54,924 bases of DNA from Sediminispirochaeta bajacaliforniensis DSM 16054 (GTDB lineage Bacteria; Spirochaetota; Spirochaetia; DSM-16054; Sediminispirochaetaceae), in NCBI RefSeq assembly GCF_000378205.1, contig NZ_KB899430.1:1-54924 (forward strand), in the 5' to 3' direction. The first letter of the stretch is position 1. The number at the start of each line of letters is the position of its first letter. Below the pieces are notes generated by a model, which worked only from the letters and a program-made list of their open reading frames with translations, was not told where the DNA came from and did no database searches. This document shows, one piece after another, positions 37,740-42,692 of this stretch. The translations under genes were made by a program, and so were the position numbers.

Positions 37740-38732
37740 TCAAATCCTGTATATGGCCCGCAAAACAGCCCATCCGTCTTCGGCAGAGGAGGGTGATGGC
37801 ATTCCGTTTTGGTCCACCATGGCTGCGGCAGTAGCTGCCATAGTGGAAAAATAGCCGGTCTTTCGAAAACGGGGAGTGATGTCGGGCATCAAAGAGTGAA
37901 AACCGGAGTAAAACGGGCTCTCCACGCTTTTAAAAAAGCGAAGGAGCCCGTTTCCAATCTCAATCTTCCCCCTTTCAAAATTGAGGTCAAGACGAAATAC
38001 AAGATGGTCTCGTTCTCCACCGATATCGAGAGAGACAGCGACAGCGCCTGCACACCCACATAGCTGAAGCGTACCTTTGTTGCTTTTAGGATTGCCCAAC
38101 CGTCGTTTTGGTATGAAATGGGCATCACAGAGGAAATTAACGGCATCGATCATGTGGGTTCCGTCGTGGATAAGCACGGCCTTGTGTGGCGCACTCCGAC
38201 CGAAATAGAGCGTGCCGTGTATGGAAAGCAAGTTTCCATATAGCTTCTGATCGATTGCATCTTTTACTACACGGTAGTCGGCGGAAAATCTCCTCTCGTG
38301 ATTTACAATGATTCTACTTTTCGATCGTCGCGCCAACGAACGAATTGTTGAGGCCTGATGTAATGTCCATGCGATGGGCTTTTCACAAACAACAACGGGA
38401 ACACCTGCCGAAAGAGCAAGCCGGACAAGTGCCAGATGGGTATCAGGCGGAGTCGCAATGGTAAGAAGATCAGGCCGGAGTTTCTCCAGCATGGCTTCGG
38501 CATCTGAAAAAAGTAACGGAGCAGGATCAAGCTCTTTCCACTGTCTGGAGAATAGCTCTCGCGCCTCACGATTTGTATCGCAAGCACCTGCCAAACAGAC
38601 CCCCTTCGTTGCAACGATGGCACCTGCATGGGTACACGGCTTTTCTCTTTGCTCATCCATCTCAAGGCTGCTACCGATTCGGCCAAGGCCGACCAGCGCC
38701 CATTGTTTTGTCTCTTTCATGGCTTCATCCAT
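37740..38732 (-). CDS. Gfo/Idh/MocA-family oxidoreductase
   Basis: A 330-residue NAD(P)-dependent oxidoreductase. The Rossmann start is ALVGLGRIGSSLEMDE; LLTIATPPDTHLALVRLALSAGVPVVVCEKPIA contains the EKP catalytic-lysine motif. The C-terminal sheet is less conserved. The ATG at 38732 overlaps the stop of the upstream DUF434 gene; an ATG at 38720 (MKETKQWALVG) with GGATG before it is equally possible. Most members act on sugars or inositols; the substrate here is unknown, and the DUF434 and ParB-like partners are unusual company. Confidence 0.82.
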   Translation of the reverse strand: MDEAMKETKQWALVGLGRIGSSLEMDEQREKPCTHAGAIVATKGVCLAGACDTNREARELFSRQWKELDPAPLLFSDAEAMLEKLRPDLLTIATPPDTHLALVRLALSAGVPVVVCEKPIAWTLHQASTIRSLARRSKSRIIVNHERRFSADYRVVKDAIDQKLYGNLLSIHGTLYFGRSAPHKAVLIHDGTHMIDAVNFLCDAHFIPKRRLGNPKSNKGTLQLCGCAGAVAVSLDIGGERDHLVFRLDLNFERGKIEIGNGLLRFFKSVESPFYSGFHSLMPDITPRFRKTGYFSTMAATAAAMVDQNGMPSPSSAEDGWAVLRAIYRI

Positions 38733-39399
38733 TAAGCAACGCTCTGATATCCGGAAACGTCGATTTATACCGGCAGCCCAAAAGCCACATAGCAAGATCA
38801 AAGGTAGGTGACACGGCTTTCATAACAAGCGCCGAATCAGAACTTGCTATGCCATCCCCCACAAAGTCCCGAACGATTGGGTCTGCAGAGGGAAAAAAAT
38901 CAACCGTTGCCTGCACTCCGGAAATCGAAAGCGCATTTCGTAATGCTTGTGCCAAGTTTCCGCTACCAGAGACAGGCCTGTCAAGACATATCAACAGATA
39001 CTCCGGATCAAGTTCGGCGATCCCCTGAATAAAGAGGGAGATAGAGTGTTCCATATATGTAGTGCTTCGACTCCTGCCGAAAGCAGCCCCGGCATCACGA
39101 AGCAAACCGTCGCTGGCGATAAACAGGGGAAGCCCTCGATGATAATTTACCAGGGTAAGCAAGACATTATGGCCGTCTACGGCAAGTCGCGAACGCTTCT
39201 CAACAGAGTACACAAGCTTTGAAGCTATCAAATTCGATACGGAACGGCTCAATACCCCCCGAAAGAGAATCATCCGCTCTGCTTTCGCCAATCTATAACG
39301 ATCTCCAACCAGTTTTAAAGTAGCTTTCGTAGGATATCCCTTATCCAAAAGCCCTCGGTAATCGACGACCGCATCGGCAAAGGCTTTGCTAAACTCCAT
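38725..39399 (-). CDS. DUF434-domain protein
   Basis: A 224-residue protein with an N-terminal DUF434 domain (AVVDYRGLLDKGYPTKATLKLVGDRY, then RLAKAERMILFRGV) and a C-terminal part starting LAVDGHNVLLTLVNY with conserved Asp (DGHNVL, LLICLDRPVSGSG), like the domain often attached to DUF434. The acidic positions would suit a metal-dependent nuclease-like fold, but this is speculation. The start at 39399 is chosen because a good promoter ends 7 nt upstream (-10 TATGAT at 39412-39407), which would make the transcript leaderless; in-frame ATG and GTG codons upstream would lie before the transcript start. First gene of a three-gene operon. Confidence 0.75.
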   Translation of the reverse strand: MEFSKAFADAVVDYRGLLDKGYPTKATLKLVGDRYRLAKAERMILFRGVLSRSVSNLIASKLVYSVEKRSRLAVDGHNVLLTLVNYHRGLPLFIASDGLLRDAGAAFGRSRSTTYMEHSISLFIQGIAELDPEYLLICLDRPVSGSGNLAQALRNALSISGVQATVDFFPSADPIVRDFVGDGIASSDSALVMKAVSPTFDLAMWLLGCRYKSTFPDIRALLNG

Positions 39400-39406
39400 A
39401 ACGAAT

Positions 39407-39435
39407 ATCATAGCTCGTATCACAATCCAGCTCAA
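39407..39435 (-). promoter_or_regulatory. Promoter of the DUF434 operon (leaderless)
   Basis: On the minus strand TTGAGC (39435-39430), a 17-nt spacer and TATGAT (39412-39407), then 7 nt to the ATG at 39399. No ribosome site precedes that ATG. Confidence 0.6.
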
Positions 39436-39447
39436 TGCGCTTGAGCT
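39429..39447. promoter_or_regulatory. Palindrome shared by two divergent promoters
   Basis: AGCTCAA, TGCGC and TTGAGCT form a perfect 7-bp inverted repeat. Its two arms are the -35 boxes (TTGAGC) of the divergent DUF434 and dnaJ-like promoters. A protein bound here would control both directions; the symmetry may alternatively just reflect twin promoters. Confidence 0.55.
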
Positions 39448-39469
39448 TTATCCTCGGCTGTACTACCAT
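39441..39469 (+). promoter_or_regulatory. Promoter of the dnaJ-like gene (leaderless)
   Basis: TTGAGC (39441-39446), a 17-nt spacer and TACCAT (39464-39469), then 6 nt to the ATG at 39476. The ATG has no ribosome site. Confidence 0.5.
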
Positions 39470-39475
39470 TGACAC

Positions 39476-40078
39476 ATGGCGGAAGAAGATATGATTCTTG
39501 AAAAGATCCGTGTCGTTTTATTCCGCTTTCCCGACGGTATCGACGAATTCCATCTGATGCAGGAACTGGGCTGGGAAGAACTGAGAAATAAGCTGGTTCC
39601 GGGTCTCTTCTGCAGTGAAGATCCCGATCGCATTCTTTTTTGCTCGCATTTCCTGCTTTTTCATCTTCTCTACCGGCTGAAAGAACGATTACGCAGTACA
39701 AAAAGCGGTTCTCTTACCGTTTTCTGTCTCGAAATTCGGCTTGTCCCTCAGCTATGCCGAACCACAGAGAACCAAGGGGCCCTTGAGAAAGCCGATCCGA
39801 TGGAAGCCTATTATCTCAATCTTCAAAACATGGAAACGGTCAGCGGCAGCGACGTTCGGAATATGCTGGAGGATTTTTTCAGGCGTTTTGCATCCTGGGA
39901 AAACAGAGATGTGGATTTAAAAATACTCGGACTTGACCACGGGGCCGGTAAGCAGGAAATCAAAGAGCAATATCATCGTCTAGTCATGAAACACCATCCC
40001 GACCGCGGCGGAAATGCGCAAAAATTCAGAGAAGTAGCCGAGGCAATGGAGCGTTTGGAAGTATCTTCCGAGTTATAA
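39476..40078 (+). CDS. DnaJ-domain protein with a DnaJ-related N-terminal domain
   Basis: A 200-residue protein. The C-terminal J domain (about 150-197) has the HPD motif in YHRLVMKHHPDRGGNAQKF and the helix IKEQYHRL, so it should stimulate an Hsp70. The N-terminal region (ILEKIRVVLFRFPDGIDEFHLMQELG, FCSHFLLFHLLYRLKERL) resembles the DnaJ-related N-terminal domain of small co-chaperones. There is no Gly/Phe or zinc-finger region, so it is not DnaJ itself. Divergent from DUF434 with a shared palindromic promoter region. Confidence 0.85.
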   Translation: MAEEDMILEKIRVVLFRFPDGIDEFHLMQELGWEELRNKLVPGLFCSEDPDRILFCSHFLLFHLLYRLKERLRSTKSGSLTVFCLEIRLVPQLCRTTENQGALEKADPMEAYYLNLQNMETVSGSDVRNMLEDFFRRFASWENRDVDLKILGLDHGAGKQEIKEQYHRLVMKHHPDRGGNAQKFREVAEAMERLEVSSEL

Positions 40079-40081
40079 TGC

Positions 40082-40110
40082 TTGACAGATAAGCAGATAG
40101 GTCATATACT
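40082..40110 (+). promoter_or_regulatory. Promoter of the ROK-ABC-GH20 operon
   Basis: A perfect TTGACA (40082-40087), a 17-nt spacer and TATACT (40105-40110), 41 nt before the ROK gene ATG. Confidence 0.75.
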
Positions 40111-40151: not shown

Positions 40152-41318
40152 ATGGGACAGCCCAAAAGAACAAGGATTATAAATACCTCTCGTGTGATTC
40201 GTACATTATGGATACACGGTGGCCTGAGTCGTGCGGCTCTCGCTCAGCGTTTGGGATTAACGAAATCCAGCATAAGCATCATTATTGACGAGCTTTTAAA
40301 AAACAAGGTCATCTGCGAAGGTCCCGAAATAGATCCTGGTCCTAAGGGTGGAAGGAAAGCCACAAAGTTATTCCTTAACAGTGACTGGCTTTATGTCGTA
40401 GGAATGGAAATCCGTTGTGATTCGGTGCTCCTGCTTGCTATCGACATAGAAGGAAGGGTCCTTTTTTCTCGTACTGTGAAACAAAAATTCTCTGCAAAAA
40501 ATTTTAGTTCGGATATACTTGCGCTCATAAAAGGCCTTAAACAGGAAGAAACACGACTTAACAGAACATTATTGGGGGTCGGTCTTGGATTTTCCGGTAT
40601 TATTGATGCAAGCAAGCAAATCATAGAACACTCCGTTTCCCTGGACTTTCATGCCCCTTTTGATTTCAACGGGGAGGTTGCCTCTCACTGTGACATACCC
40701 ATCATCATTGAAAATGATGCAAACTGTGGGGCCTGGGGAGAAGTGGTCTTCCGTAGAAAACACCAGTTAAAAAATTTCTTATTTCTTCTCATCGAATTCT
40801 GGAAATACTGCTCTTCTGAAGGTGATCTGCCACAGCCAACAATCGGATTAGGTTTTGGTTTCAACGGAAAGATATACCGAGGAACCTATAGCTCGGCTGG
40901 TGAATTTAAAAGCCTGCTGAATGATGATCCCGACAGCTCGGCCCAGATATGCTGGAAAAGAGGCTCGGACGTTATTCCTTTAACGAAAGATAAAATCGCA
41001 TTGCAAAAGTATATTCGGGAGCTTTGCCGCAACGTAGCCTTCTTAGTGAACACCCTTGATATTGGAAACCTCTTTATTGGCGGTGATATTGAAGAGTTTA
41101 AATCTTTTATTTCCACCATGCTGAATGAAGAGCTTCGGGCCAATACTCTTACCTCGGCATCTCCCCGTTGTGAAATCCAATTCTCGGCCTTAGGGCATCA
41201 GGCTGTGGCCTTTGGCGCAGCCGGGCTTATCCTCGATAGGGTGTTTATGAATCTGGAAGCCCTGGATGATCCCTTTGGCCGACCAAAGATACAACCGCTT
41301 TACTTTATGGAGGAATAG
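40152..41318 (+). CDS. ROK-family transcriptional regulator
   Basis: A 388-residue protein. The N-terminal MarR-like HTH (VIRTLWIHGGLSRAALAQRLGLTKSSISII) precedes a ROK sugar-kinase-like domain with a VGLGFSGIID loop and IIENDANCGAWGEVVFR. The usual ROK zinc site (GEIGH plus CGCGNxGC) is missing: the matching place reads AGEFKSLL and no cysteine cluster follows, a variation I recall from spirochaete ROK regulators. It likely represses the following transporter and GH20 genes until a sugar binds. First gene of the operon; a candidate operator lies upstream. Confidence 0.9.
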   Translation: MGQPKRTRIINTSRVIRTLWIHGGLSRAALAQRLGLTKSSISIIIDELLKNKVICEGPEIDPGPKGGRKATKLFLNSDWLYVVGMEIRCDSVLLLAIDIEGRVLFSRTVKQKFSAKNFSSDILALIKGLKQEETRLNRTLLGVGLGFSGIIDASKQIIEHSVSLDFHAPFDFNGEVASHCDIPIIIENDANCGAWGEVVFRRKHQLKNFLFLLIEFWKYCSSEGDLPQPTIGLGFGFNGKIYRGTYSSAGEFKSLLNDDPDSSAQICWKRGSDVIPLTKDKIALQKYIRELCRNVAFLVNTLDIGNLFIGGDIEEFKSFISTMLNEELRANTLTSASPRCEIQFSALGHQAVAFGAAGLILDRVFMNLEALDDPFGRPKIQPLYFMEE

Positions 41319-41322
41319 CAAT

Positions 41323-41339
41323 CTCTATCCCGGATAGAG
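41323..41339 (+). other. Intercistronic hairpin between the ROK and binding-protein genes
   Basis: CTCTATC, CCG and GATAGAG form a 7-bp perfect stem right after the ROK stop codon with no T tract. Such hairpins often protect the downstream message for the highly expressed binding protein, so it may set the expression ratio. Confidence 0.45.
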
Positions 41340-41372
41340 AAGAACGGGATAAAAATAAAAAGGAGGAAGGTC

Positions 41373-42692
41373 ATGAAAAAGAGAGAGATAGTACGACTAT
41401 TCGTACTATGCAGCTTTTGTGTTAGCACAGCTCTTCTCGTGGGGTGTAATAAAAAAGGAGAGGAGGCAACTACACAAGAATCGGGTACAATTACCTTGTC
41501 GGCTTATCATTATCTTGATCAAACCGATAAAACCACGGCCCCCAATTTCCAGGCACTGGTCGAGGCGTTTAATAAAAAGTATCCGAATATCAAAATAAAT
41601 TTTGAATTCGGATATGGTGAAGCCTATCACACAAAGCTACAAACCCTTGCAGCCTCAGGTCAGTTACCGGATATGATGGTTGTCTATCCGGGAAAACGAA
41701 CCGCCTATATCACTTCAGAAGGTCATGTTCAGGACCTTCGGCCCCGATTCTCCGGCCATGAAAGTGAATTTGCCTCAATTGCCTTGAAATCGCAAGGACC
41801 CAACGGGGAAATGTGGGAGATTCCCGAGGACATCAGCGTTACTTCAATCATGTATACAAACAATAAGCTGTTGAAAGAATTGGGACTCACCTTTCCAAAA
41901 ACTTTGGATGAACTGATTGCCCAGGGAGAAACTATCAGGCAGGCAGGGCTGATTCCCATTTCAATGGCAAATAAGGATGCCTGGCCTATGCAGTCCTGTC
42001 TTGCAAGTATGCTTGCGGAACGGACAGGCGGAATGGAATGGTTCGACAAGGCTGTAAAAGGCGACGGAGCCGGGTTCGATGATGATGTTTTTGTTCGCGC
42101 TTTGGAGATTATTAATTTCTTACATGAAAAAGAGATGTTTTCGCCCGGCATAAACCAGCTTGCCTACATGCAAGGGTTAGACGATTTTGTGAATGAGCGA
42201 GCCGTTTACTTCATCGACGGCGGATGGATGGTCAATAATATGGTCGGGGAACTTTCCGATGAACAGAAAGAATACATGTCTCTGGAGTCTTTCCCCGATA
42301 TTCCGAATCAGAAAGGGGAAAGCGGTTCGGCATCTGGAGTCGCTGGCACCGGATTCGGTATGAACTCGGACTTAAGCGGCGAAAAGGCCGAGGCGGCATG
42401 GAAGTGGATTTGGTTTTATTCCGGACCCGAGGGTTCCGCCATCAGACAGAGATTTGGAAGACTTCCAGCCTATAACCTGAAGGCTCCTGATGATGTCGAC
42501 CCCATGATAAAAAAACTCATCAACTATGTCGGTTCAATTCCTATGGGATATGTTCTTGATTCCGTCGTAGGTGCCGAGGGAATCGGTATATTTAATAATG
42601 ATCTTCAGGAAATGATGTTTGGATTGACCACACCAAAGGATGTTGCAAGCAAACTTGAGGAATGGGTAAACGAAAACGACAGATCCAACTAA
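41373..42692 (+). CDS. ABC transporter sugar-binding lipoprotein
   Basis: A 439-residue family 1 extracellular solute-binding protein. The N terminus is a lipoprotein signal with lipobox LLVGC (Cys 25). The mature part carries typical segments: FQALVEAFNKKYPNIKINFEF, LAASGQLPDMMVVYP and AWKWIWFYSGPEG near the C terminus. AAGGAGGAAGG precedes the ATG. With the two downstream permeases it should bring an oligosaccharide into the cell; the GH20 gene points to an N-acetylhexosamine-containing sugar such as chitobiose. Confidence 0.92.
   Translation: MKKREIVRLFVLCSFCVSTALLVGCNKKGEEATTQESGTITLSAYHYLDQTDKTTAPNFQALVEAFNKKYPNIKINFEFGYGEAYHTKLQTLAASGQLPDMMVVYPGKRTAYITSEGHVQDLRPRFSGHESEFASIALKSQGPNGEMWEIPEDISVTSIMYTNNKLLKELGLTFPKTLDELIAQGETIRQAGLIPISMANKDAWPMQSCLASMLAERTGGMEWFDKAVKGDGAGFDDDVFVRALEIINFLHEKEMFSPGINQLAYMQGLDDFVNERAVYFIDGGWMVNNMVGELSDEQKEYMSLESFPDIPNQKGESGSASGVAGTGFGMNSDLSGEKAEAAWKWIWFYSGPEGSAIRQRFGRLPAYNLKAPDDVDPMIKKLINYVGSIPMGYVLDSVVGAEGIGIFNNDLQEMMFGLTTPKDVASKLEEWVNENDRSN

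Follow-up and report, generated by a model that had tools for sequence, protein, structure and literature searches.

The 76-bp gap between a DUF434 gene and a DnaJ-related gene of Sediminispirochaeta bajacaliforniensis DSM 16054 probably consists of two back-to-back housekeeping-sigma promoters, each giving a predicted leaderless mRNA. The gap lies in a window of 54,924 bp (the whole stretch of DNA that was analysed, positions 1 to 54,924 of contig NZ_KB899430.1). On its left, the gene for a DUF434/DUF5616 protein (Pfam PF04256, PF18481) occupies 38725..39399 on the minus strand and starts at ATG 39399. On its right, the gene for a DnaJ-related protein (Pfam PF12339 and a C-terminal J domain) occupies 39476..40078 on the plus strand and starts at ATG 39476. 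A sequence-only reading of this DNA had proposed two divergent leaderless promoters here, and with the -35 boxes taken as abutting this proposal is well supported by a genome-wide class of such promoters and by a second gene pair, encoding a CheX-family protein and a GHMP-kinase-family protein. The arrangement is most likely a common one in compact form; by itself, the gap is a compact divergent promoter region.

When the sequence was re-checked, the palindrome AGCTCAA-TGCGC-TTGAGCT was found at 39429..39447, as had been read, and TTGAGC was present on both strands. The two 7-bp arms match without a mismatch around a 5-bp centre, and this inverted repeat carries both -35 hexamers back to back. 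The predicted -35 box of the DUF434 gene (TTGAGC, 39430..39435, minus strand) was assigned by promoter scan, shuffle test and coordinate check. Its predicted -10 element is TATGAT (5/6 matches to consensus, 39407..39412, minus strand). For the DnaJ-related gene, the predicted -35 box is TTGAGC (39441..39446, plus strand) and the predicted -10 element is TACCAT (4/6, 39464..39469, plus strand). The spacer between TTGAGC and the -10-like hexamer is 17 bp on both strands, and the -10 hexamer ends 7 nt before the ATG on the DUF434 side and 6 nt before it on the DnaJ-related side, again as read before, with 76 bp between the two ATGs. Two descriptions in the earlier reading needed correction. The gap had been called nearly symmetric, which is true of its spacing but not of its sequence, since in the flanks of the 19-bp palindrome dyad symmetry holds at 10 of 30 positions, where 7.5 are expected. 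The -35 boxes had been called shared; they are adjacent and inverted, but the hexamers do not overlap and lie 5 bp apart.

No Shine-Dalgarno site could be read before ATG 39399 or ATG 39476, and no clear one stands before any start in either frame. ATG 39476 is the first possible start in the DnaJ-related frame; the next in-frame ATG, at 39491, reads GTG in Sediminispirochaeta smaragdinae, and the loss of this codon in the sister species supports the start at 39476. The DUF434 frame is open upstream as far as TTG 39435 and holds further candidate starts there (GTG, TTG and an upstream ATG). Read in the extended frame, both substitutions found there are synonymous, which counts against ATG 39399 as the start. 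A literature search on DUF434 led to work on DUF4343.

The strongest support for the promoters is genome-wide, because both sides of the gap fit a leaderless class that stands out statistically in the sister genome. The sample was 2.5 Mb of S. smaragdinae with 1,938 genes, which were called by codon usage, with upstream signals unused. The gene starts come from our own simple gene caller, and the counts of the class include the DUF434/DnaJ-related pair itself. Among genes with no Shine-Dalgarno site, -10 matches of at least 5/6 ended 6 nt before the ATG in 26 cases and 7 nt before it in 33, compared with about 4 per position elsewhere; this peak at 6 to 7 nt was absent from Shine-Dalgarno-bearing genes of the same 2.5 Mb. 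In the class without a Shine-Dalgarno site, TTG stood at the exact 17-bp spacer upstream of 18 of 87 -10 elements (background about 1), although the -35 region had not been used in their selection. Weak -10 elements (4/6) with TTG at 16-18 bp showed the same preference, with 20 at a distance of 6 nt from the ATG and about 0.6 per position elsewhere in genes with no Shine-Dalgarno site. By these sequence statistics, the leaderless promoter class in Sediminispirochaeta is real. Both promoters of the gap, including the weak one on the plus strand, have its features: a -10 element 6 to 7 nt before the ATG, no Shine-Dalgarno site and TTG at 17 bp. The distance of 7 nt on the DUF434 side coincides with the peak of strong -10 elements, and the distance of 6 nt on the DnaJ-related side with the excess of weak -10 elements preceded at 16-18 bp by TTG; TTG at 17 bp is the -35 signal of the class.

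Many mRNAs of the spirochaete Leptospira interrogans are known to be leaderless (PMC5243855). Like those predicted here, the leaderless promoters of L. interrogans belong to a spirochaete, start transcription at the start codon and are common in the genome (PMC5243855); the starts in L. interrogans were mapped, whereas those in Sediminispirochaeta, another genus, are predicted from sequence statistics. Testing this one gap thus exposed a clear and apparently common leaderless class in a free-living genus far from Leptospira.

In the 2.5-Mb sample of S. smaragdinae, 9 of 233 divergent gene pairs were leaderless-like on both sides. One of these, a CheX-family gene beside a GHMP-kinase-family gene that we take to be IspE, has nearly the same geometry as the gap studied here (C1 1956998/1957072; gap of 73 bp). 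It contains two near-consensus predicted leaderless promoters (TATACT; TTGACA/TTGAAC), and its centre, TGTCAA-A-TTGAAC, has abutting -35 boxes only 1 bp apart and no perfect palindrome. The sequence of this second gap is identical in S. bajacaliforniensis and S. smaragdinae. Abutting -35 boxes therefore recur without a perfect palindrome. Compact divergent pairs of leaderless promoters of this kind are natural test cases for polymerase competition.

The sequence-only reading had proposed beforehand that conservation be checked across spirochaetes, and among the genomes searched the divergent DUF434/DnaJ-related pair was found in only two, that of the window itself and that of S. smaragdinae, which are 95% identical here (over 47 kb). 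These were also the only two genomes of the family with this region. DUF434 relatives occurred in 16 of 60 genomes, the window's own among them, and DnaJ-related proteins in 50 of 393 genomes of the phylum; a further search of genome contigs for orthologues added one distant DUF434. The palindrome was absent upstream of 15 DUF434 and 28 DnaJ-related relatives from other spirochaetes and phylum members. In S. smaragdinae the palindrome, both -10 elements and the spacing are unchanged, and the three differences within the 76 bp (39403, 39415 and 39472) all fall between the elements. This agreement between the two species says little, because at 95% identity three differences match the local average of 3-4 for any 76 bp.

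If the gap is read as two sigma-70-type promoters, these would fire outward from its 76 bp, and their inverted -35 boxes, 5 bp apart, would create most of the palindrome. Because each -10 element lies 6-7 nt before its ATG, transcription is predicted to begin on the A of each start codon (39399 and 39476) or beside it, and the leaderless mRNAs would be translated with no Shine-Dalgarno site. If both promoters were occupied together, the upstream edges of the two polymerases would meet or overlap slightly, which makes some competition plausible; strong mutual exclusion would not be expected unless one side were very active. We infer the actual start sites, the activity and the competition at the gap.

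The hexamers might instead be coincidental, with one or both genes transcribed from elsewhere, that is, from upstream, from inside the 5' part of the opposite gene, or with a longer DUF434 N-terminus that begins at the upstream ATG or at GTG or TTG. Judged by consensus only, the promoters here stand at chance level: the consensus scan gave 2 promoter-like sites compared with 2.2 in shuffles. The -10 element on the plus strand, with 4/6 matches, also counts against two promoters, as does the DUF434 frame, which extends open as far as 39435. Such coincidence is nevertheless very unlikely, as both hexamer pairs stand exactly at the positions of the leaderless class and none of the possible starts in the two frames is preceded by a clear Shine-Dalgarno site. 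In addition, only 0.1% of shuffles had two equally good -10/-35 pairs placed right before both ATGs, a test that was made post hoc. A second alternative accepts the promoters as described and takes the palindrome as an operator at which a dimeric transcription factor would cover both -35 boxes and repress both genes at once, the symmetry being selected for the protein. The window has many inverted repeats whose arms are 7 bp or longer (52, about 1 per kb), although only 2.2% of shuffles of the 76-bp gap contained one. Two facing TTGA boxes alone make a TCAA...TTGA repeat, so that the added AGC/GCT is the part left unexplained. Identity at all seven arm positions, which only 0.2% of pairs of leaderless-class -35 stretches showed, exceeds what two independent -35 boxes usually give and favours an operator. 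The palindrome is also unchanged in S. smaragdinae, but so were 49% of the 19-bp stretches here. A regulon search in both genomes gave about as many sites as the reversed-pattern control (20 compared with 17, and 22 compared with 15). In the genome of the window, both sites with a single mismatch lie within coding sequences, no site was found before the DUF434 and DnaJ-related relatives examined, and by Pfam neither of the two genes here resembles a DNA-binding regulator. The earlier suggestion that a dimeric factor controls both sides thus found no support, the palindrome being a singleton in both genomes; a factor with a single target site is possible, and an operator is on the whole unlikely.

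The sequence-only reading had also raised mutual exclusion, and judged from the geometry of the predicted starts this is possible in degree. A true switch, in which occupancy of one promoter shuts the other so that the cell would make the co-chaperone and the DUF434 protein in alternation, has in its favour the short distances between the predicted starts (77 bp) and between the -35 boxes (5 bp). Exclusive binding is also the authors' model for the overlapping divergent promoters of plasmid pLS20 (PMC4207663). Against it, the bidirectional promoters of E. coli overlap more and yet compete only slightly at basal activity (PMC12825309), weak promoters like these would rarely be occupied together, and no feedback element is visible; we regard such a switch as highly improbable. 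The broader proposal, either a regulator-free switch in which two leaderless promoters whose -35 boxes abut would compete for polymerase, expression of a DnaJ-like co-chaperone thus opposing that of a DUF434 protein, or one dimeric factor that would set both sides from a single target site, also appears doubtful.

Two back-to-back promoters remain our preferred reading, and they can be compared with several known systems. In phage lambda, PRM and PR lie back to back with about 80 bp between their starts, and one of the two is leaderless (cI); at such a spacing two polymerases may bind at once, with partial interference. The distance between the starts is similar to that in the gap, but in lambda the region carries three operators and is served by two dedicated repressors, whereas none are known for the gap. 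Pc and Pr of pLS20 resemble the gap as divergent sigma-A promoters that overlap, and binding of a single polymerase at a time has been proposed for them (PMC4207663). The overlap there is tighter than in the gap, the -35 box of one side being proposed as the -10 element of the other, and one of the genes encodes the regulator Rco, whereas the DUF434/DnaJ-related pair has no such regulator (PMC4207663 for pLS20). Bidirectional promoters of E. coli and Salmonella that share a -10 element (PMC12825309, PMC10268837) are, like the gap, short near-symmetric elements between divergent genes with possible polymerase competition. They have a common -10 element and starts mostly 10-23 bp apart, commonly 10, 18 or 23 bp (PMC12825309), whereas the gap has abutting -35 boxes, separate -10 elements on the two strands and predicted starts 77 bp apart, and so falls outside this class. 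In E. coli, marked competition at bidirectional promoters appeared only once one direction was strengthened (PMC12825309). We found no literature on divergent promoters with overlapping -35 boxes with the terms tried.

Just past the DnaJ-related gene, a near-consensus promoter, TTGACA-17-TATACT, is located at 40082-40110 (plus strand), 41 nt before a ROK-family regulator gene (40152) that precedes an apparent sugar-transport operon. From 40152 to 42689, divergence between the two species is much higher in the ROK regulator and in the next gene, which encodes an apparent solute-binding protein, than in their left neighbours. Divergence at 4-fold sites was 0.32 for the ROK regulator and 0.28 for the apparent solute-binding protein, and 0.04-0.11 for the genes on the left side.
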